From contig NZ_WWHU01000001.1 in the NCBI RefSeq assembly GCF_009862785.1, positions 1,984,001 through 2,048,000 of the forward strand: a stretch of 64,000 nucleotides of DNA. The letters run 5' to 3'. The position numbers and the translations under genes were made by a program. The stretch is from Gordonia sp. SID5947. Its GTDB lineage: Bacteria > Actinomycetota > Actinomycetes > Mycobacteriales > Mycobacteriaceae. Below the pieces are notes generated by a model, which ran no database searches, had not been told where the DNA came from, and was given only the letters and a program-made list of their open reading frames with translations. How positions within the stretch are numbered: position 1 is the stretch's first letter; each line of letters opens with the position of its first letter. Of the stretch, positions 53,252-61,776 are shown one piece after another.

Positions 53252-54001
53252 CTAGACCATCCGCCGCGTGATCGAAGACGGCAGGTGACGCAACGCAGCC
53301 GCGATCGGCACCCACGGCCATCGTGGTACGGGCGCCCAGGCAGTCTCTTTCTCGATGGCCGACACCATCGCGGCGACCCCTTTGCCGGTGTCGGTCATCA
53401 TGGCCGTCGTGACACCCCGGTTGATGTCGGTCTCGATATAACCCGGCGCAATGACGGAGATGGTGATCGCGGATCCCGCGAATTCGGCCTGTAGCCCCTG
53501 CCCCAGGGCGGAGAGCCCGGCCTTTGATGCCGAATAAGCGGCCTGCGCCCTCGGTAGGCCGCGCACCGCGCTCATCGAGCTGATCAGCACGAGATGCCCG
53601 TGATCCTGCGCCCGGAAGATCTCCATCGCCGCCTCGACCTGTGCCAGCGCACCCACCAGGTTCGTCTGTACGGTCTCGAGGTTCGCGGCCGCCATACCCG
53701 TTCCGATCGGCGCACCCTTGCCGAGTCCGGCATTGACGATGACCCGGTCGAGTCCTCCGATGTCGTCGGCGAGTTCGGTGAAAACACCTCGGACGGAATC
53801 AGTCTCGGTGACGTCGAGACGAGCGGTCGCCACCTGGCCCGCCGACGGTCGCAGTTCGGCCGCCAGGGCGTCGAGCCGATCGAGTCGACGGGCACAGAGC
53901 GCCAGATCGCGGCCCATGCCGGCGAACTCGCGGGCCATACCCTCCCCGAGCCCGGAGCTCGCACCGGTGATCAAGATCCTCTGCCGTGTCGTCGCGCTCA
54001 C
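53252..54001 (-). CDS. Short-chain dehydrogenase/reductase (Rv0945-like)
   Basis: The 249-aa SDR shows TGASSGLGEGMA near residue 13, VNAG in the middle, Ser in LISSMSAV and YSASK. The position beside pgi matches M. tuberculosis Rv0945. GTG 54001 follows TAGATT at 8 nt. The substrate is unknown. It lies 72 bp downstream of the aminotransferase gene on the same strand, so cotranscription with the four-gene ThDP-KASIII operon is possible but it has its own likely promoter. Confidence 0.9.
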   Translation of the reverse strand: MSATTRQRILITGASSGLGEGMAREFAGMGRDLALCARRLDRLDALAAELRPSAGQVATARLDVTETDSVRGVFTELADDIGGLDRVIVNAGLGKGAPIGTGMAAANLETVQTNLVGALAQVEAAMEIFRAQDHGHLVLISSMSAVRGLPRAQAAYSASKAGLSALGQGLQAEFAGSAITISVIAPGYIETDINRGVTTAMMTDTGKGVAAMVSAIEKETAWAPVPRWPWVPIAAALRHLPSSITRRMV

Positions 54002-54072: not shown

Positions 54073-55113
54073 TCAGGCGGTCAGGGCCGTCAACCGCAGC
54101 GCCTGGACCACATAGTCGGTGCCTGCACGGTCGCCGATCGTGATGCGCATCCCGTGACCTTCGCACTCCTTGGTCGCCACGCCGCAACTCCGGAGGAGCC
54201 GGCCGATGGCAACACCCTCGGGACCGGGCAGGAACAGGAAGTTCGCCTGGCTGGGCAGGGTCGGGCAGCCGATCGCCGCGAGCATGTCAGCCAATCGCCG
54301 GCGCTCCGACTTCATCAATCGAACACGCTGTGCGAGTTCGGCTTCCGCGGCAAGGGCGACCGGGACAGCCGCCATCGCGGCCGGCCCGACCGCGAACGGC
54401 ACCTCGTGCCGACGCACCTGCGACACCACCCCGACGTCACCGATGCCGTATCCGACCCGCAGCGCGGCGAGACCGTACGCCTTGGAGAACGTCCGCAGCG
54501 CGAGTACGTCGTCGCGGACGTCGACGAGCAGGTGTAGGTCGGGTGGGTTGTCGCAGAACTCGACGTACGCCTGATCGACCACCGTGAGCACGTGCGGCGG
54601 CAGCGCGTCGATGAACTCGTACAGCGCCTGGGGCGCGACCGACGAACCCGTGGGATTGTGTGGGGAGCACACCACCACCGCCACCACCTCGTCGGTCACC
54701 GCGGCCCGCAGCAGGTCGAGATCGACGCTGCCATCGCCGGCCAGGGGAACGCCGTGCACACGAAGTCCGACCATCTCCGCGAGAATCGGATATCCGTCGA
54801 AGGTGGGCAGCGCGGTCACCAGAGCAGGGCGGCGGATGCCGGCCGCCACGGCACGTTGCGCACAGACCTGCAAGGCCGACAACGCGACCCCCGTCGCGCC
54901 GGCGCCGACGGTCACCTGGCGAGCCGGTACACCGAGGTGACCGGCGATGTCCGCGCGGGTCCGGTCGGGCAGGAAGTCGGGGTACCGGTTGGCCTCCGCC
55001 ATCACGTCTCCCAGTACCGCGGCCACGGCAGGCAATGGCGCATAGGCGGATTCGTTGAGGTCGAGTCGTGCGAGCGGCCAGGGTTGCGCATCCGGTTCGA
55101 GCGGCGGACTCAT
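54073..55113 (-). CDS. HisC-like PLP-dependent aminotransferase
   Basis: The 346-aa fold-type I enzyme resembles histidinol-phosphate aminotransferases. Lys211 in TFSKAYGLAALR is the PLP lysine; Asn153 (SPHNPTG), Asp180 and Tyr183 (VVDQAYVEF) and Arg219 complete the cofactor site, and a C-terminal Arg lies in GMRITIG. Genome-context makes histidine synthesis unlikely: it is last in an operon with a ThDP enzyme, an SRPBCC protein and a KASIII-like protein. ATG 55113 overlaps the upstream stop (ATGA). It probably transaminates a ketone or aldehyde made by the operon (inference). Confidence 0.88.
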   Translation of the reverse strand: MSPPLEPDAQPWPLARLDLNESAYAPLPAVAAVLGDVMAEANRYPDFLPDRTRADIAGHLGVPARQVTVGAGATGVALSALQVCAQRAVAAGIRRPALVTALPTFDGYPILAEMVGLRVHGVPLAGDGSVDLDLLRAAVTDEVVAVVVCSPHNPTGSSVAPQALYEFIDALPPHVLTVVDQAYVEFCDNPPDLHLLVDVRDDVLALRTFSKAYGLAALRVGYGIGDVGVVSQVRRHEVPFAVGPAAMAAVPVALAAEAELAQRVRLMKSERRRLADMLAAIGCPTLPSQANFLFLPGPEGVAIGRLLRSCGVATKECEGHGMRITIGDRAGTDYVVQALRLTALTA

Positions 55114-56141
55114 GGTCGGCCGCCCCAGCGGAGCGCCGCGGCAGCGGCGAAGTCGCCTGCGTGGGCGAACGCAGCCGTCATCACCACCTCGCCCTCGCGG
55201 ATCCGGCCGTCGGTGATCGCGGTGTCTAGGGTTACCGGGATACCGACCGCGAAGAGATTTCCGCACTCGTCGAAGGTGTCGGGGTGTCGATGCTCCGGGA
55301 GTTCCAGCGCCTCACGCCAATTGCGCAGGAAGATGCGGTTCGGCTGATTGGTGACGAACCAGTCCAGATCTGCCGGTGCGATGCCGATCGTGTCGGCCAC
55401 CTCGATCGCCACCTCGGGCACCATCCGGTTGCCGCGGGCGAGGACCTTGGCGATCTTCGCTTCGGTGAACCCGATGTGGATCTGGCCCGGACCCGCTTCC
55501 CAGTATTTGCGCTGCGGCTCGGCCACCCCGGTCATGTCACCGGAGTACTGGCCGTACGACCGGCACGACAGACCGAGAATCGGGCTGCCCTGATCGCCGT
55601 CGAGAGTGAGAACGGCGACCGCGGAGCCGTCTCCGGGGATGGCGGCCTGAGGCTTTCCGCGTACCTGTTCCTGAGTGAACACTTGCGCCGCGCTGTTCTG
55701 TGCGAGGCCGAGCAGTGCCCGTCGACCACCGTTGGCGCGCAGCAGCGCGGTCGCGAGGTCGATCATGTGGATGAACGCCGCGCATCCGCCGTTGTGGACG
55801 TCGAGCACGGTGGACGGCCGCAGACCGAGCCGATGGGCCACTTCACCACCGCATCCGCGCACCGGCACCTCGGGCAACTGACTGTGCGTGAGCACCACAT
55901 CCACGTCGTCGAAGAAGGCGTCACCATGGCGTTCGGTGAGCACGCGTGCCGCGGACAGCATCATGTCGGCCGAGGTCTCCCCGTCCGCCGCATGATGCCG
56001 AAAGGCGGGAGCCCGGAACATGACGTTGCCGACGAGATCGTCACTCTCCGCGAACTGCGCGAAATACTCTGCGGACACGCGATTCTCCGGCAGATAGGTG
56101 GCGAGATCCACCAGCATCGCCTGTGACGGAACGTATGTCAT
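55110..56141 (-). CDS. KASIII-like (FabH-like) thiolase-fold enzyme with an Asn-substituted catalytic His
   Basis: The 343-aa protein aligns by eye with FabH. The nucleophile is Cys120 in VHNGGCAAF, and the oxyanion Asn is Asn295 in DECGNLFAVG. At the conserved HQAN position, however, the sequence reads NQPN, so the catalytic His is Asn265. This weakens malonyl decarboxylation as usually done by FabH and points to an acyltransferase or an unusual condensation. ATG 56141 overlaps the SRPBCC stop, and its stop overlaps the aminotransferase ATG, both as ATGA. The longer open frame upstream is noise. Confidence 0.87.
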   Translation of the reverse strand: MTYVPSQAMLVDLATYLPENRVSAEYFAQFAESDDLVGNVMFRAPAFRHHAADGETSADMMLSAARVLTERHGDAFFDDVDVVLTHSQLPEVPVRGCGGEVAHRLGLRPSTVLDVHNGGCAAFIHMIDLATALLRANGGRRALLGLAQNSAAQVFTQEQVRGKPQAAIPGDGSAVAVLTLDGDQGSPILGLSCRSYGQYSGDMTGVAEPQRKYWEAGPGQIHIGFTEAKIAKVLARGNRMVPEVAIEVADTIGIAPADLDWFVTNQPNRIFLRNWREALELPEHRHPDTFDECGNLFAVGIPVTLDTAITDGRIREGEVVMTAAFAHAGDFAAAAALRWGGRP

Positions 56142-56800
56142 GAGCGCATCCAATCCGGCGTGATGGGCAGGCCGTTGTGATGCCGGTACTCGGCGATCGC
56201 CGTGAGATTTTCGAGTTCGAGTTGGTGACCGGCAGAGAACATGTCCCAGAAATCCCCGACCCATACCGGACGTTCCGGCGGAGCGGTCTCGGGATACGGG
56301 TTCTCGTCGTAGAACGGATGATGGCAGTTGTGCCACAGGACCACCGATCCGGGTTTGTCCAGCACCACCTGGGCGTCGACCACCCGCATCAGGTAGATCA
56401 TCCAGAGATGTTTGCCCTGATCCCATGCACAGTGATAGTCGACCGTCATCGCGTGCGGATTGGCGATGGTCCGGGTGTAGATCTCGGTGTGATCGCCGAG
56501 CCGGTCCCGGCCGACCCACAGGCCCGGTTCGTCGGTGGGCACAAAGCCGCGCAGGCTGTACGTCCACTCCTCCAGCGACCGTGTGTCCGACAGCCAGTTG
56601 TACAACTCGCGTGGCGGAGCATCCACATATCCCTGGACCGGGCAATAGTCACCGTAGATCTGCTGATGGGGATAAACCGACCTCAGCCGGTCGACGAGCA
56701 CCGGGGTGGCCACCTCCCGCGGGTGACTCTCGATCCTGGTGATCCCCGGCAGCGTCATCGCGTCGTCACCGAGATCGGCCAGTGGGGTTGTCACGGTCAT
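56138..56800 (-). CDS. SRPBCC-like protein of the ThDP-KASIII operon
   Basis: The 220-aa protein has a Bet v1/polyketide-cyclase-like pattern: VQGYVDAPPRELYNWLSDTRSLEEW at the first strand-helix, then strands ending in WHNCHHPFYDENPYPE, and a C-terminal helix (FWDMFSAGHQLELENL). Several His, Asp and Tyr residues in the last third could line a pocket. It may bind or cyclise an intermediate of the pathway; exact family not known to me. AAAGGAG precedes ATG 56800. It overlaps the KASIII-like gene by 4 bp and follows the ThDP gene by 11 bp. Confidence 0.75.
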   Translation of the reverse strand: MTVTTPLADLGDDAMTLPGITRIESHPREVATPVLVDRLRSVYPHQQIYGDYCPVQGYVDAPPRELYNWLSDTRSLEEWTYSLRGFVPTDEPGLWVGRDRLGDHTEIYTRTIANPHAMTVDYHCAWDQGKHLWMIYLMRVVDAQVVLDKPGSVVLWHNCHHPFYDENPYPETAPPERPVWVGDFWDMFSAGHQLELENLTAIAEYRHHNGLPITPDWMRS

Positions 56801-56811
56801 GCGTGCTCCTT

Positions 56812-58476
56812 TCAGAGAAACGGGGCGAACGGAGGTAGTTCCTCGGGATCGACGTCGATCACCAGACAGTTCGGCCCGTCGGAGGCAAAGAGTTCGGCGC
56901 AGCTCTTCCCGAGTTCGATGACATTCGCGGCGTGTCGGACCACCAGACCGGGGAACATCGCGTCGAGCCCCGCCGCGATTGCGCTCGGCCGGAACCGGTT
57001 GACGGTCGGGAACTCCGGGAAATAGAGACGATCGCGTGTGACGCACATGCCGTGTGCGTCGTTGTTGAGGACGATCAGCGTGAGCGGCGCGTCATGCTCG
57101 ATCGCGGTGTGCATCTCCATGCCATGCATGAAGAAGGCGCCGTCACCGGCGATCACGATCGAGCGCGTTCGGTCGTCCACCACCGCGCACCGCACCGCGT
57201 TGCCGACGCCCGACGCGATCGCGTGGCCCATGCCGCCCATGCCGAGCGCGACCGTGAACCGTTGCTCGGGCGAGAACGGCAGGTGGTGAAGCGCGGCCGC
57301 CCCGGCATTGCCGGCGTCGGCGAACACCGCGCACGTCGGTGGGAGGTGCGCACCGATCGTCTCGATGACCGCCTGCGAGTCCGGTCGGGACGAGTGTGCG
57401 TGCGGTACCTGCAGACGCTCGACGACGACGGCCGGTATCCCCGGTGATCGCGACATCTTCGTGCCGACCAGCTTCGTCAGCATCCGTATCGTGTGCTCGA
57501 GATCGTCGGTGACGATCTGTGCGCAGGCGTCGAATCGCGCGCCGTGACGACCGATGGAGGTCAGGTCGGTCGAGTGGAGCGCATCGTCGAGACCGGCCCG
57601 ATCGGTGATCGACATCCGGCATCCGATCGCGATCACCATCTCCGCCCTATGGATGGCGACGTGCGCACTCGGGTGCCCCATCACGCCGGTGACCCCGGCA
57701 AAACCATCGTCGGGCGTCCCGACATCCCGTCCTCCGGGCGACGCCACCGTCGTCGCCCCTACTGTCTCGGCCAGTTCACCGATCTGCGTGCCGAGCCGTT
57801 CCCATGACGCCTGTTCACCCACCCACAGACAGACACGTCCCGGCACCGTCGCGGTTGCCGCCAACCGCTCGGCAAGCGCGTCGAGGAGATCGTCCGGAGA
57901 CGTTGCGTACTTTTCCGGAGGTACGTCGGGGTGAGCCGGAGTCCCGGGCGCCATGGGCGCGGCCTGGACATCCTTCGGCACGATGAGTACGGCGGGCAGT
58001 CCACGGTCGAGGGTGTGCCACGCGGTCGCCAGCGCGGCAGCCATCGTCTCCGGCGACGACACCACGGCGCAGGAACCACTCACCGCGGCCATCAGAGCGA
58101 CCAGGTCGATCGTGTCCGGCGGGTTCAACATGTCCTGGAAGGCACCGCGACCGACCAAACCCGTTGGCGCGCTGCCGATCAGCGCCAGCACGGGTACCCG
58201 GCTGTCGTAGGCTTCGGCCAACGCGGGTACGACGTTCATCGCTCCGCCACCAGACGTCGTCATCACCACACCGGGACGACCGGTGACCCGTGTCGTCCCG
58301 TCGGCCATCGCGCCCGCGGCGAACTCGTGCTTGGCCACCACCGGGCAGATCCCGACGGCCTGCGCCGCCGCGTACATGTCTTCGATGTTGGCGCCGTGGA
58401 CCCCGTACGCGACGCGCACGCCCCGATCGTGGAGCACCTCCATGAGATGCTCCGCCGTCGACCGGTCTCGCGCCAT
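56812..58476 (-). CDS. Thiamine-diphosphate-dependent enzyme (acetolactate synthase-like)
   Basis: The 554-aa protein has the three domains of the ThDP decarboxylase family. The catalytic Glu is Glu51 (AKHEFAAGAMADG) and the ThDP motif runs from GDG (444-446) to NN (471-472). It belongs to the acetolactate-synthase-like branch, but no ilv genes or regulatory subunit are near, so valine/isoleucine synthesis is unlikely. It probably decarboxylates a 2-oxoacid and adds the carbanion to an acceptor. ATG 58476 has no good Shine-Dalgarno. It is the first gene of the operon and divergent from the histidine kinase. Confidence 0.87.
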   Translation of the reverse strand: MARDRSTAEHLMEVLHDRGVRVAYGVHGANIEDMYAAAQAVGICPVVAKHEFAAGAMADGTTRVTGRPGVVMTTSGGGAMNVVPALAEAYDSRVPVLALIGSAPTGLVGRGAFQDMLNPPDTIDLVALMAAVSGSCAVVSSPETMAAALATAWHTLDRGLPAVLIVPKDVQAAPMAPGTPAHPDVPPEKYATSPDDLLDALAERLAATATVPGRVCLWVGEQASWERLGTQIGELAETVGATTVASPGGRDVGTPDDGFAGVTGVMGHPSAHVAIHRAEMVIAIGCRMSITDRAGLDDALHSTDLTSIGRHGARFDACAQIVTDDLEHTIRMLTKLVGTKMSRSPGIPAVVVERLQVPHAHSSRPDSQAVIETIGAHLPPTCAVFADAGNAGAAALHHLPFSPEQRFTVALGMGGMGHAIASGVGNAVRCAVVDDRTRSIVIAGDGAFFMHGMEMHTAIEHDAPLTLIVLNNDAHGMCVTRDRLYFPEFPTVNRFRPSAIAAGLDAMFPGLVVRHAANVIELGKSCAELFASDGPNCLVIDVDPEELPPFAPFL

Positions 58477-58591
58477 GGCACAACCATGCGTCTCGGGCGC
58501 TGAAGGTTTGCTGAAAGCGCGCTCTGGCCGAGGGGACCTCACGGGAATACGCTCGATGTGCACACGGCGTACATCGAAGGGTCACCTGATC

Positions 58592-60070
58592 GTGGCGATC
58601 ACGCGAGAGAGCTTGCCGCACGTCATCCGGCACCGCGGTGGTGTGCGCATGCAATCGACGATCATTGCCGCCGCCGTCGTCACGGTGGCCTTGGCGGTCG
58701 GCGGGATGGCGATGCTGTTCATGCTGCATCGGGCCAACAACGAGGCGATGTACCGCTCCACCGGCCGACAGGCCTATCAGATCGCGGCCGCGATCGAGCG
58801 CCGCGGTGTGCCCGGCGTCGACATGGACGACCTGGCGCCCGGCGCCGGTGTCGACGTCATCCAGGTGATCGACGCGGACGGCCGGGTGGTGCGATCGTCG
58901 CCGGGCGCCCCCACCGGTCCGATCATCGAGATCGACCAGGCACCACACACCTACCGCTACTTCGACGATGTCTCGATACCGGGGTTCAGTGGGGAGTTCT
59001 GCGCCACCGCGGTGGGGGCCGAGTACGGCGATCAGTACTTCACGGTGTTGGCACTCGACCGCGCGACCGGTGTGCGCCACAGCGAGTGGATCACGGGGAT
59101 CATCCTGGCAGTCGAGATCCCGCTGTTGGTGGTCGTCGCCGCGGGCGCGGTGTACCTCCTGGTCGGCCGATCGTTACGCCCGGTATCCCGGATAACCAAG
59201 CAGGTCAACGAGATCACTGCGACCGCACTCGAGCAACGGGTGCCGGTACCGGCAGCCGACGACGAGATCAGCACCCTCGCGACCACCATGAACGACATGC
59301 TGTCGCGGCTGGAGAACGCGCGCGAAGCCCAACTCCGTTTTGTCGCGGACGCCTCGCACGAGTTACGCAGTCCGCTGACGAGCATCGTCGGCATACTCGA
59401 TCTCGCCGACGACACCGATTCGTCCGTCGACCTGCCGACTGTTCGGACGATCCTGCTGCCGGAAGCGAAGCGGATGCAGGTGATGGTCGACGATCTGCTC
59501 ATGCTGGCCCGCGCCGACGAGAACGGCCTCACCGTGAACCTCGACGAGATCGACCTCGATGACGTGGTGGCAGCTGAGGTCGCTCGCGTCCGGTCGCTCG
59601 GTTCGGCGCGAATCCGCCTGCACATCACACCGATTCGGATGATCGGCGACAGCGACAAGATCACTCGCGCACTGCGCAACGTCATCGACAACGCGGTCCG
59701 GCATGCCCGTTCCATGGTATCGGTGACGATGCACGCCGAGCGCGACGTCGCCGTGGTGACGATCGCCGATGACGGTTCCGGCATCCCGGTGCGCGACCGC
59801 GACATCGTCTTTCAGCGATTCGCTCGCCTCGACGTGGATCGCCGCAATCAGTTCGGCGCCGGGTTGGGGCTCGCCATCGTCCAAGAGATCGTTCGTGCGC
59901 ACGGAGGCACCGCGACGATCGGCGAGAGTGACATGGGCGGAGCGACCGTGACGATCACACTGCCATTGGCCGCATCCGAGGTCCGTGACCACACGACACC
60001 CGCGACCACCGCGAGCGGATCTGTCCCCGAAGAGGTCTCAGTGAGTCCTCAGACCTCACAGAGCCGGTAG
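58592..60070 (+). CDS. Sensor histidine kinase
   Basis: The 492-aa kinase has two membrane helices (about 22-46 and 168-192) bounding a ~120-residue extracytoplasmic sensor, then HAMP, and a HisKA domain with His256 in FVADASHELRSPL. The ATPase domain has N-box RALRNVIDNAVRHA, G1 IADDGSGIP and G2 GAGLGLAIVQEIV. GTG 58592 with AAGGG upstream is chosen; ATG 58556 is possible. Its 3' end overlaps the oppositely oriented response regulator by 22 bp, and it diverges from the ThDP operon. Confidence 0.9.
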   Translation: MAITRESLPHVIRHRGGVRMQSTIIAAAVVTVALAVGGMAMLFMLHRANNEAMYRSTGRQAYQIAAAIERRGVPGVDMDDLAPGAGVDVIQVIDADGRVVRSSPGAPTGPIIEIDQAPHTYRYFDDVSIPGFSGEFCATAVGAEYGDQYFTVLALDRATGVRHSEWITGIILAVEIPLLVVVAAGAVYLLVGRSLRPVSRITKQVNEITATALEQRVPVPAADDEISTLATTMNDMLSRLENAREAQLRFVADASHELRSPLTSIVGILDLADDTDSSVDLPTVRTILLPEAKRMQVMVDDLLMLARADENGLTVNLDEIDLDDVVAAEVARVRSLGSARIRLHITPIRMIGDSDKITRALRNVIDNAVRHARSMVSVTMHAERDVAVVTIADDGSGIPVRDRDIVFQRFARLDVDRRNQFGAGLGLAIVQEIVRAHGGTATIGESDMGGATVTITLPLAASEVRDHTTPATTASGSVPEEVSVSPQTSQSR

Positions 60071-60720
60071 CCGGCGCCACGTACGGTCTCGATCGATCGC
60101 ACCCCGAACGGATCATCGATTCGCTTGCGCAGATACCGGATGTAGACCTCGACGATGTTCTCGTCACCTTCATAATTCTCATCCCAGATCGATTCCAGGA
60201 TGAGTCTTTTGGACACCACAGTTTCCTTGTTCCGGATCAGGAACTCCAGGAGCGCGTACTCGCGAGGCGTCAGGGTGACCGGGGTGTCACCCCTGGCCAC
60301 CTTTCGTTCCGCCGGGTCGAGGGTGAGGCTGCCTGCCCTGAGGATCGCGGGCCGCTCTCGTCCGCCCCGCCGGATCACCGCCCGGAGGTGCGCTTTGAGG
60401 ACCACCACCGAGAAGGGCTTGACCAGATAGTCGTCGGCGCCGTAGTCGAGGGCCTCCGCCTGGTCGTACTCGCCGTCCTTGGCGCTGAGCATCAACACCG
60501 GCGTCCAGACCTGTCGTTCACGCATCTCCTGGACGACGCGAAACCCGTTGAGCTTGGGCAGCATGATGTCGAGCACGACCACGTCGAACTGCTCTTCGGT
60601 GGCCCGCCACAAACCTTCCGCGCCGTCCGTGGCGACGACGACACTCCATCCCTCGCTCGCCAACACCCGGCGCACGGTTTCCGCCGCCCGCACATCGTCG
60701 TCGACAACCAGCACTCGCAC
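60049..60720 (-). CDS. OmpR/PhoB-family response regulator
   Basis: The 223-aa regulator has a receiver domain with Asp51 as phosphoacceptor (VVLDIMLPK), acidic pair at VVDDD and Lys in DDYLVKPF. The winged-helix domain shows LTPREYALLEFLIRN and VEVYIRYLRKRID, ending GAGYRLCEV. GTG 60720 is used with GAGG upstream. It is the likely partner of the convergent kinase, although the two are tail to tail. Targets are unknown; the divergent ThDP operon is a candidate. Confidence 0.94.
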   Translation of the reverse strand: MRVLVVDDDVRAAETVRRVLASEGWSVVVATDGAEGLWRATEEQFDVVVLDIMLPKLNGFRVVQEMRERQVWTPVLMLSAKDGEYDQAEALDYGADDYLVKPFSVVVLKAHLRAVIRRGGRERPAILRAGSLTLDPAERKVARGDTPVTLTPREYALLEFLIRNKETVVSKRLILESIWDENYEGDENIVEVYIRYLRKRIDDPFGVRSIETVRGAGYRLCEV

Positions 60721-60873
60721 CGATCCACCTCGCTCGCCGACGGCTCCCCACGGAGCCCGGCACGAAGCCGACTCGGCCACGATGAGGAACCACGATCTGA
60801 CCCGTCCCGACCCAGATGTGACCCTACGCCCCGCACGCGTACCGTGCGGTCTCGTCCGTGCCGCCGACCGACG

Positions 60874-61776
60874 TCACTTCAGCAGACGCGACATACGGCG
60901 GTCGGCCAAGACCTTCCCACCGGTCTGGCACGTCGGGCAGTACTGGAACGATCGGTCCGAGAACGACACCTCACGGATCGTGTCGCCGCACACCGGGCAC
61001 GGCAGTCCGGTTCGCGCGTGCACCTTCAGGCCGGTTCGCTTCTCCGACTTCAACCGGGCGACCTCCTGCCCCTCGAGCCGACCGATCGCGGTGGTGAGCA
61101 CCGACCGCGTCGTCTCGTAGAGCGAGTCCACCTGGCTGTCACTCAGCGACTTGGCCGAGGCGAACGGCGACAACCGGGCGTCGTGCAGGATCTCGTCGGA
61201 GTACGCGTTGCCTATCCCGGCCATCGTGCGCTGGTCGGTGAGGACGTTCTTGATCCGGCCCGTGGTGCCGGCGAGGATCGTGCCGAACTCCGCCCGGGAC
61301 ACCGCGAGGACATCCGGCCCGAGCGATGCGATCCGGTCGACCTCGCCGACCTCGCGCACCACCCACACCGCGAGCCGCTTCTGGGTGCCCGCCTCGGTGA
61401 CGTCGAACCCCTCACCCGGCAGGCCGCAGTGCACGCGAACCGCTATCGGCCCCTTGCCGCCGGGCCGGGGCGGAGTCTGCGAGAGTTGCTCGCTCCACCG
61501 CAGCCATCCCGCCCGCGACAGATGGATCACCAGATTGATCACCGGGTCCCGATCTGTCGCACCGTTGGTGCTGTCCGGCCCGGGAACGGTCCGGATGACC
61601 AGGTATTTCCCGATCCGGCCCACGGACTCGATCAGGCGTCCGGTCAACGCCGTGTAGGGCGGATCCGCGGTCTTCAAGACGGCCAGCGACGCGACGTCGA
61701 CCCGCCGGATGGGAAACCCGGCCGCGCGACCGTCCACATAGGCAGCCACCGCCGCCACCTCAGGGAGCTCAGGCAT
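60874..61776 (-). CDS. Fpg/Nei-family DNA glycosylase (full-length Rv0944-like)
   Basis: The 300-aa base-excision enzyme starts MPELPEV, so Pro2 and Glu3, the catalytic pair, are present. The helix-two-turn-helix GIGNAYSDEIL and a C-terminal zinc finger (CPVCG and CPTCQ, spacing 19) are intact. M. tuberculosis Rv0944 is only a short fragment of this protein as I recall it; here the gene is complete and probably active. The substrate (8-oxoG or oxidised pyrimidine) is not certain. It is divergent from cysQ with only 25 bp between the start codons. Confidence 0.93.
   Translation of the reverse strand: MPELPEVAAVAAYVDGRAAGFPIRRVDVASLAVLKTADPPYTALTGRLIESVGRIGKYLVIRTVPGPDSTNGATDRDPVINLVIHLSRAGWLRWSEQLSQTPPRPGGKGPIAVRVHCGLPGEGFDVTEAGTQKRLAVWVVREVGEVDRIASLGPDVLAVSRAEFGTILAGTTGRIKNVLTDQRTMAGIGNAYSDEILHDARLSPFASAKSLSDSQVDSLYETTRSVLTTAIGRLEGQEVARLKSEKRTGLKVHARTGLPCPVCGDTIREVSFSDRSFQYCPTCQTGGKVLADRRMSRLLK

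Follow-up and report, generated by a model that had tools for sequence, protein, structure and literature searches.

Within the 64,000-nucleotide stretch of the genome of Gordonia sp. SID5947 analyzed here (the window; positions 1,984,001 to 2,048,000 of NZ_WWHU01000001.1, on contig 1; genome size, 5.1 Mb), calling of open reading frames (ORFs) identified four adjacent genes on the minus strand that encode, in this order, a thiamine diphosphate (ThDP)-dependent enzyme, an SRPBCC protein, a condensing enzyme similar to ketoacyl synthase III (KASIII; KAS in gene orders), and a HisC-like aminotransferase (AT) (Table 1). The four-gene operon that a sequence-only reading had described here was borne out with its ORFs as given, and so were its junctions, an 11-bp gap between the ThDP and SRPBCC genes and a 4-bp ATGA overlap at each of the SRPBCC/KAS and KAS/AT borders. 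The four genes also stand together in other genomes, as that reading would have it. Among the named loci, which are the best 80 of 489 matching contig stretches, 56 show ThDP-SRPBCC-KAS-AT in exactly this order with all genes on the same strand, and a further 12 show ThDP-SRPBCC-KAS, so that the order and the shared strand are not due to chance; the others are four SRPBCC-KAS-ThDP loci on contigs labeled as metagenome-assembled genomes, four Streptomyces loci of the cqs type discussed below, and four with other arrangements. In comparison with a close relative (locus L122), the dN/dS ratio (omega) was 0.025 for the SRPBCC gene, 0.059 for KAS, 0.176 for ThDP, and 0.180 for AT, next to 0.082 and 0.081 for the two flanking backbone genes, which encode a short-chain dehydrogenase/reductase (SDR) and an Fpg-like protein, respectively. 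These values, 0.025 to 0.18 for the operon, indicate that its genes are maintained; the operon is real and under selection.

Table 1. Features of the operon and of the surrounding module in the window (positions counted from the first nucleotide of the window)
Feature	Position	Strand	Remarks
ThDP-dependent acetolactate-synthase-like enzyme, CqsB3/NzsH-type	56812..58476	-	554 aa; Pfam TPP N/M/C
SRPBCC/Bet v1-like carbazole-synthase homologue, CqsB2/NzsI-type	56138..56800	-	220 aa; PDB match CqsB2
KASIII-like condensing enzyme, CqsB1/NzsJ-like	55110..56141	-	343 aa; Pfam ACP_syn_III_C
HisC-like class I aminotransferase, CqsB7/NzsD-type	54073..55113	-	346 aa; Pfam Aminotran_1_2
HAMP histidine kinase, divergent from the operon, same inserted module	58649..60070	+	Pfam HAMP/HisKA/HATPase; start codon inferred
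OmpR/PhoB-family response regulator, same module	60049..60780	-	Pfam Response_reg + Trans_reg_C
Candidate response regulator box, direct repeat CTTTCAGC-N4-CTTCAG, 11-bp period	58500..58517	-	24-41 bp upstream of the ThDP start
Flanking backbone SDR, outside the pathway	53255..53998	-	Pfam adh_short
Flanking backbone Fpg-like DNA glycosylase, outside the pathway	60874..61776	-	Pfam Fapy_DNA_glyco/H2TH

The family assignments of the four proteins are of unequal detail. The translation of the ThDP enzyme contains HE and GDG..NN motifs, which we take to have their usual meaning in this enzyme class, and its best matches in the PDB are BbmA/CsmA, on which the open-access literature yielded no relevant paper. 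For the KASIII-like protein, the C-terminal Pfam family lies over the cut-off and the N-terminal family slightly under it; its AlphaFold2 model (predicted local distance difference test score, pLDDT, 93.6) has a FabH/PqsC-type fold, and it is 94% identical to a homologue from G. hankookensis, the best named homologues all being from Gordonia. The best NCBIfam match of the AT is PRK03321, with 256 bits against a cut-off of 374, and no Pfam family reached its cut-off with the SRPBCC protein.

Compared with the sequences of the PDB, the SRPBCC protein had CqsB2 (6ipv) as its sole distinct match (E = 2.2e-42), and no other appeared up to E 10. Its AlphaFold2 model (mean pLDDT 87.7) also had 6ipv as the top Foldseek match (E = 8.7e-18; runner-up, 4e-6), and the two could be superimposed with a TM score of 0.67 and a root-mean-square deviation of 16 Å over 211 columns, some part being placed differently. 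CqsB2 is described as the carbazole synthase of carquinostatin (PMC7466098). According to the same source, the aminotransferase CqsB7 acts first in this pathway and converts tryptophan (Trp) to indole-3-pyruvate, the ThDP enzyme CqsB3 couples the latter to pyruvate, the KASIII-like CqsB1 catalyzes a decarboxylative condensation with an acyl-acyl carrier protein (acyl-ACP), and CqsB2 closes the ring in the last step; the combination of an AT, a ThDP enzyme, a KASIII-like enzyme, and an SRPBCC protein is given as the source of the carbazole core of both carquinostatin and neocarazostatin (PMC7466098).

Homologues of all four cqs core enzymes are encoded by the window operon. The reference was a cqs-type locus from Streptomyces achromogenes (L033), whose cyclase segment matches that of CqsB2 used here with 100% identity, and the window proteins were scored against it and against those paralogues that were found in their own genome in one uniform tblastn. 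The AT matched the L033 AT with 44% identity and 221 bits (best paralogue, 34% and 151 bits), the ThDP enzyme its counterpart with 33% and 220 bits (paralogues, at most 27% and 125 bits), the SRPBCC protein the L033 cyclase with 40% and 140 bits, and the KASIII-like protein the cyclase-adjacent KAS with 28% and 129 bits, compared with 65 bits for the second KAS of L033; no paralogue of the KASIII-like protein scored at E 1e-3 in this comparison. The operon thus shares with the Streptomyces pathways the same four enzyme families (CqsB7-CqsB3-CqsB1-CqsB2 and NzsD-H-J-I), the fold of the cyclase with four of its five proposed catalytic residues, and an AT, a ThDP enzyme, and a KAS that are nearer to the L033 enzymes than to the paralogues found. 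However, the identities are just 28-44%, the gene order is ThDP-SRPBCC-KAS-AT rather than the KAS-SRPBCC-ThDP..KAS..AT of cqs, the KASIII-like protein has Asn for His and the cyclase Asp for Glu105 in the active site, and the window island has its own two-component pair.

Two further pathways are similar to the operon in part. The chlocarbazomycin cluster chlCz of Streptomyces tubbatahanensis and S. diacarni, likened here by its description and not by sequence, comprises an AT annotated as HisC, a ThDP enzyme annotated as acetolactate synthase, a KASIII, and an SRPBCC carbazole synthase, but it also has an ACP and several tailoring oxidoreductases, and a mono-hydroxyl carbazole intermediate has been proposed for it (PMC10100901). 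The cyanobacterial ScyA/ScyC of scytonemin biosynthesis likewise pair a ThDP enzyme acting on indole-3-pyruvate with a cyclase (PMC9822442). The match of the window SRPBCC protein to ScyC is, however, marginal (E 0.002). We know of no KASIII-like enzyme in the scytonemin pathway. The statement of the sequence-only reading that no characterized pathway has exactly this set of enzymes is therefore contradicted by carquinostatin, neocarazostatin, and chlocarbazomycin. The match to a characterized cluster extends to the enzyme set and not to the gene order, the details of the active sites, or the product. The operon is of a known kind in its enzymes, and what is new about it is its clade, its active site, its gene order, and its regulation.

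The active sites were compared in 113 locus proteins (80 from the named contigs, 29 further ones, and 4 from a plasmid collection). Residues D99, Y136, Y164, H192, and E195 of the window cyclase align with E105, Y144, Y172, H206, and E209 of CqsB2. The Tyr, Tyr, His, and Glu of the proposed catalytic site were present in all 113 locus proteins and in 238 of 238 wider homologues, the complete site reading D-Y-Y-H-E in 108 of the loci and E-Y-Y-H-E in 5. At the position of Glu105, 118 homologues collected from the cqs side had 75 Glu, 28 Asp, 14 Met, and 1 Asn; some of the 28 with Asp belong to the clade of the window, but the first 12 of them (P0250 to P0335) share 49-67% identity with the cqs cyclase, which indicates that Glu105 is not strictly kept among the closer CqsB2 homologues and weakens the replacement as a marker of the clade. 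The KASIII-like protein has Cys120, Asn295, and an extra His327, with Asn265 in the place of the triad His. These four positions (120/265/295/327) read C-N-N-H in 106 of the 113 loci, including contigs labeled Bacteriovorax, Planctomycetota, and Gammaproteobacteria, and C-H-N-H in 5 loci of the cqs type. The extra C-terminal His is common to CqsB1 and was not seen in three classical KASIII rows from the same Streptomyces loci. With Cys-Asn-Asn instead of Cys-His-Asn, the window enzyme falls outside the strict CqsB1/NzsJ subfamily. The two remaining rows are odd: that of L029 reads C-R-R-P and is broken or out of register, and in Mycobacterium bohemicum (L067:9561-10571) the active-site Cys is a Gly in an otherwise complete operon, by natural change or sequencing error.

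The reading that we favor, to which we give a probability of about two in three, is that the operon encodes a compact, deeply diverged bacterial carbazole pathway, in which Trp, pyruvate, and an acyl thioester would be converted to a 1-alkyl-2-methylcarbazole antioxidant lipid. By analogy with the cqs enzymes, the AT would convert Trp to indole-3-pyruvate and the ThDP enzyme would join this to pyruvate to give an alpha-hydroxy-beta-keto acid; the KASIII-like enzyme would load a fatty acyl group on Cys120 and couple it with loss of CO2, and the SRPBCC cyclase would close and aromatize ring A. The predicted product, a 1-alkyl-2-methylcarbazole-3-ol or -3,4-diol resembling the lipocarbazoles, would be a lipid antioxidant of the membrane; the reactions, acyl chain, product, and role are all inferred. 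The sequence-only reading is supported in so far as the operon probably joins an alpha-keto acid and an acyl thioester through a carbon-carbon bond. Its late transamination to an amino ketone probably has the order of events backwards, since the AT acts first in the known pathway and the window AT is nearer to the cqs AT than to its paralogues.

The antioxidant lipocarbazoles are 3-oxygenated carbazoles from Tsukamurella pseudospumae Acta 1857 (PMC7466098, its reference 7) and, like carazostatin and the carbazoquinocins, have been described as 1-alkyl-2-methylcarbazoles (PMC11350554). The review states that the machinery for mono-oxygenated carbazoles is still to be identified (PMC7466098), and our search of the open-access literature found no genes identified from the lipocarbazole producer. 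A single cyclase match at E 0.001 is present in the sequenced T. pseudospumae strain, JCM 13375, and lies in a ThDP-SRPBCC-KAS operon, and the Tsukamurella enzymes form the clade neighboring that of the window. The link is an association at the level of the species; with the source and structure of the lipocarbazoles taken together with this cyclase, a lipocarbazole-like compound is the simplest prediction for the window operon.

Several observations weigh against this interpretation. JCM 13375 is not the producer strain and its operon lacks an AT, and the papers found describe no product from Gordonia or a mycobacterium. The window island lacks a dedicated ACP and a classical KASIII (CqsB6/B5) as well as a prenyltransferase (CqsB4), an ACP elsewhere in the genome not having been sought. 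Glu105 of CqsB2 is Asp99 in the window cyclase, although some closer CqsB2 homologues have Asp as well, and a decarboxylative coupling is less than certain with Asn where CqsB1 has its triad His. In trees of the KAS and SRPBCC proteins (56 rows each), the cqs group (100/100) is split from the rest by long branches, that from cqs to the clade of the window being about 3.2 changes per column for SRPBCC and about 5 for KAS, so that the product may differ from that of cqs. In favor of the interpretation, both trees place the window with other Gordonia, adjoining a Tsukamurella set and one contig labeled Acidobacteriaceae, with a support for the grouping with Tsukamurella of 99/95 for KAS and a less firm 94/87, under the starred level, for SRPBCC.

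In a rival reading, the same reaction types act on another arene. Phenylpyruvate or 4-hydroxyphenylpyruvate would then be used and the cyclase would yield a non-carbazole alkylated aromatic, which would suit the membership of the AT in the broad HisC-like PRK03321 group, the 33% identity of the ThDP enzyme to that of cqs, the weak match of the SRPBCC protein to ScyC (E 0.002), and the report that the ThDP step of scytonemin synthesis also uses 4-hydroxyphenylpyruvate (PMC9822442). However, the cyclase is far nearer to CqsB2 than to ScyC, a CqsB2-type closure uses the indole ring, and the only natural products that we can tie to a genus in which the cyclase is near-universal are the indole-derived lipocarbazoles; we regard such a substrate as unlikely. 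The altered triad raises a different question, namely, whether the KASIII-like enzyme might transfer its acyl group without decarboxylative C-C coupling and give acylated indole acyloins (esters) as substrates of the SRPBCC protein. The replacement of His by Asn in 106 of 113 loci is in line with this, as is the description of the product of the CqsB1 step turning spontaneously into indole esters (PMC7466098). Nevertheless, the Cys, the Asn, and the extra His common to CqsB1 are kept, and the four invariant residues of the cyclase, together with an omega of 0.025, the lowest of the six genes measured, suggest that ring closure is the point of the pathway, which makes ester formation as the outcome quite improbable.

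In the sequence-only reading, the operon belongs to a pathway of an unknown kind, in which a diketone arises from an acyl thioester and a ThDP-bound carbanion and transamination to an amino ketone is the final step. The gene set and the gene order with the AT last would fit this proposal, but in the known pathways with these enzymes the AT acts at the start (PMC7466098, PMC10100901), and the AT is the least constant member of the operon: none was found in the 12 of 80 named loci with ThDP-SRPBCC-KAS, including T. pseudospumae and three Streptacidiphilus. We consider an amino ketone product very improbable. The inconstancy of the AT fits a supply step in the carbazole pathway, in which a housekeeping aminotransferase could replace it. 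The notion that all Tsukamurella lack the AT proved wrong, since 2 of 12 loci (L013 and L019) have it; ten of the twelve loci are just 3.6 kb long.

In the window, the interval between the SDR and Fpg genes holds the AT, KAS, SRPBCC, and ThDP genes followed by a histidine kinase (HK) and a response regulator (RR), and no further selected ORF of at least 70 aa. In three operon-free Gordonia genomes (G090, G141, and G129), the SDR and Fpg matches are neighbors, 53-132 bp apart, and in a fourth (G310) 1.4 kb separates them, whereas G250, G311, and G276 have AT-KAS-SRPBCC-ThDP-HK-RR between them as in the window. The Fpg has one orthologue in each of the 15 genomes examined. The proposed insertion between two backbone genes is thus supported by the three operon-free genomes, although the insert also holds the HK and RR, which the sequence-only reading had left out; its claim that a conserved biosynthetic operon behaves here as an accessory island is supported. 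Since the SDR stays in operon-free genomes, we rejected the SDR beside the AT as a missing reductase.

The HK has orthologues with 50-86% identity in all four other operon-positive Gordonia genomes examined, the copy of G276 having an in-frame TAG, and its best match in 10 operon-negative Gordonia genomes was 42% identical. In the seven loci compared, the HK is present in the SDR-Fpg interval only where the operon is present too. The RR occupies the same position in L120, L121, and L122 and was not found in L118, L119, L123, and L124. The direct repeat upstream of the ThDP gene, a candidate OmpR-type box, is kept with its 11-bp period in all four upstream regions compared (the window, L120, L121, and L122, the last a close relative). 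In Gordonia, the operon is probably controlled by the adjacent HK/RR pair.

A different regulator adjoins the operon in other genera. In Mycobacterium celatum (L055), the operon follows SigL (6dv9, E 4.7e-84) and RslA (3hug_B, E 8e-29), and a MarR-type gene follows the AT. The M. tuberculosis MarR-family gene rv0737 is reported to lie directly downstream of sigL-rslA, the place of its orthologue varying among mycobacteria (PMC13002591); in M. celatum, the operon occupies the interval between sigL-rslA and a MarR-type gene. Of the 76 named non-cqs loci, 48 have a SigL or RslA match in the fetched flanks; these loci are from Mycobacterium (Mycolicibacterium included), Nocardia, and Antrihabitans. 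The match is usually on the same strand and upstream, and in six Nocardia loci it is downstream and inverted. The pattern TGAAC-N17-CGT, chosen from a SigL consensus, occurs upstream of ThDP in 53 of 72 examinable loci, 47 of 47 with a SigL/RslA neighbor and 6 of 25 without, compared with 134 of 3600 random 360-bp windows (true sites included) and at most 6 of 72 for other spacings from 10 to 25. It also precedes sigL itself in 23 of 30 cases. The distance from the site to the assigned ThDP start is mostly 34-101 bp, and 224-261 bp for four sites in Nocardia; conservation of the spacer is low (mean identity 0.41). The published -10 element of SigL is given as T-G-N-C/A-A-G with a preferred upstream CG (PMC6372665). 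The CG and T are built into our pattern, whereas the C that prevails at the fourth place is an independent agreement.

Against such a promoter stand the -11 G (the second place of the -10 element), which is not constant in these sites, and the fact that 7 of the 72 upstream regions have the pattern on the opposite strand. For the window operon, a SigL-type site was rejected as the driver because none lies in the 300 bp upstream of the ThDP gene, and no SigL homologue was found at E 1e-20 in eight Gordonia/Tsukamurella genomes in a search made without a positive control, a result consistent with regulatory rewiring. Oxidation of RslA has been reported to lower its affinity for SigL (PMC2877774). 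Control of the operon in Mycobacterium, Nocardia, and Antrihabitans probably lies with the redox-sensing SigL/RslA pair.

The distribution of the operon was assessed from cyclase matches at E 1e-10. Of 301 sampled genomes of Mycobacteriaceae as defined by GTDB, 102 had the cyclase, and these fell in 16 of 31 genera; it was present in 34 of 59 Gordonia and 15 of 16 Tsukamurella genomes, the latter genus being that of G137, which has the same match coordinates as the T. pseudospumae locus L101. Among 394 genomes sampled from the class, 28 had it, 24 of which were Mycobacteriaceae. Of the 34 Gordonia matches, those of G304 and G303 are fragmentary and that of G008 is interrupted by an internal stop, and the second copy of G311 is likewise broken or partial, which indicates that the operon is also being lost in Gordonia.

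In the papers found, carbazole biosynthesis is described from Streptomyces, where it yields carbazole antioxidants, with homologous clusters in a few other bacteria (PMC7466098, PMC10100901). Our search of the open-access literature found no link of such an operon to mycobacteria, Nocardia, Gordonia, or Tsukamurella, although a subscription paper could exist. A new pathway as first stated is unsupported, yet the operon is wider spread and more telling than expected; a diverged carbazole core is now placed in many mycobacteria, nocardiae, gordoniae, and tsukamurellae. We would put forward only tentatively the wider proposal that about a third of the species of the family have a carbazole-lipid operon for a membrane antioxidant, with a KASIII-like enzyme of the Cys-Asn-Asn type; that the operon is a direct SigL target in Mycobacterium, Nocardia, and Antrihabitans, where oxidation of RslA would lead to an inhibitor of lipid peroxidation; that it was relocated and rewired to a two-component system in Gordonia; and that it explains the lipocarbazoles. 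The present findings provide a candidate operon for the lipocarbazoles, point to a plausible antioxidant output of the RslA/SigL redox sensor in several genera, and offer a test case for KASIII-like catalysis in the absence of the triad His.

Some further loci are worth mentioning. In two Tsukamurella loci, a flavodoxin-like gene lies just upstream of ThDP (L101:6669-7214 and L113:7738-8283); one might guess that its product is an electron donor for a reductive aromatization. The plasmid collection gave six records with a cyclase match, and ThDP-SRPBCC-KAS was found on two records deposited as plasmids, one from Rhodococcus opacus (L115, mobilizable) and "plasmid 7" of T. tyrosinosolvens (L113), which are a possible route of spread. 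Viral contigs scanned with the cyclase alignment gave no relative. The same three-gene core is present in L043, L046, L053, L084, L096, and L107, with the order SRPBCC-KAS-ThDP in four of the six, on contigs labeled Planctomycetota, Bacteriovorax, Gammaproteobacteria, Oligoflexia, and delta proteobacterium, and a CqsB2 relative was found under the name Legionella dresdenensis. A second type of operon, set apart in the trees, is present in some Nocardia, Antrihabitans, and Gordonia effusa (L042, L047, L074, and L106; L082 and L102 were assigned to it by look only), and is carried in addition to a sigL-linked operon by N. acidivorans, N. jejuensis, Nocardia sp. SYP-A9097, and A. stalagmiti.

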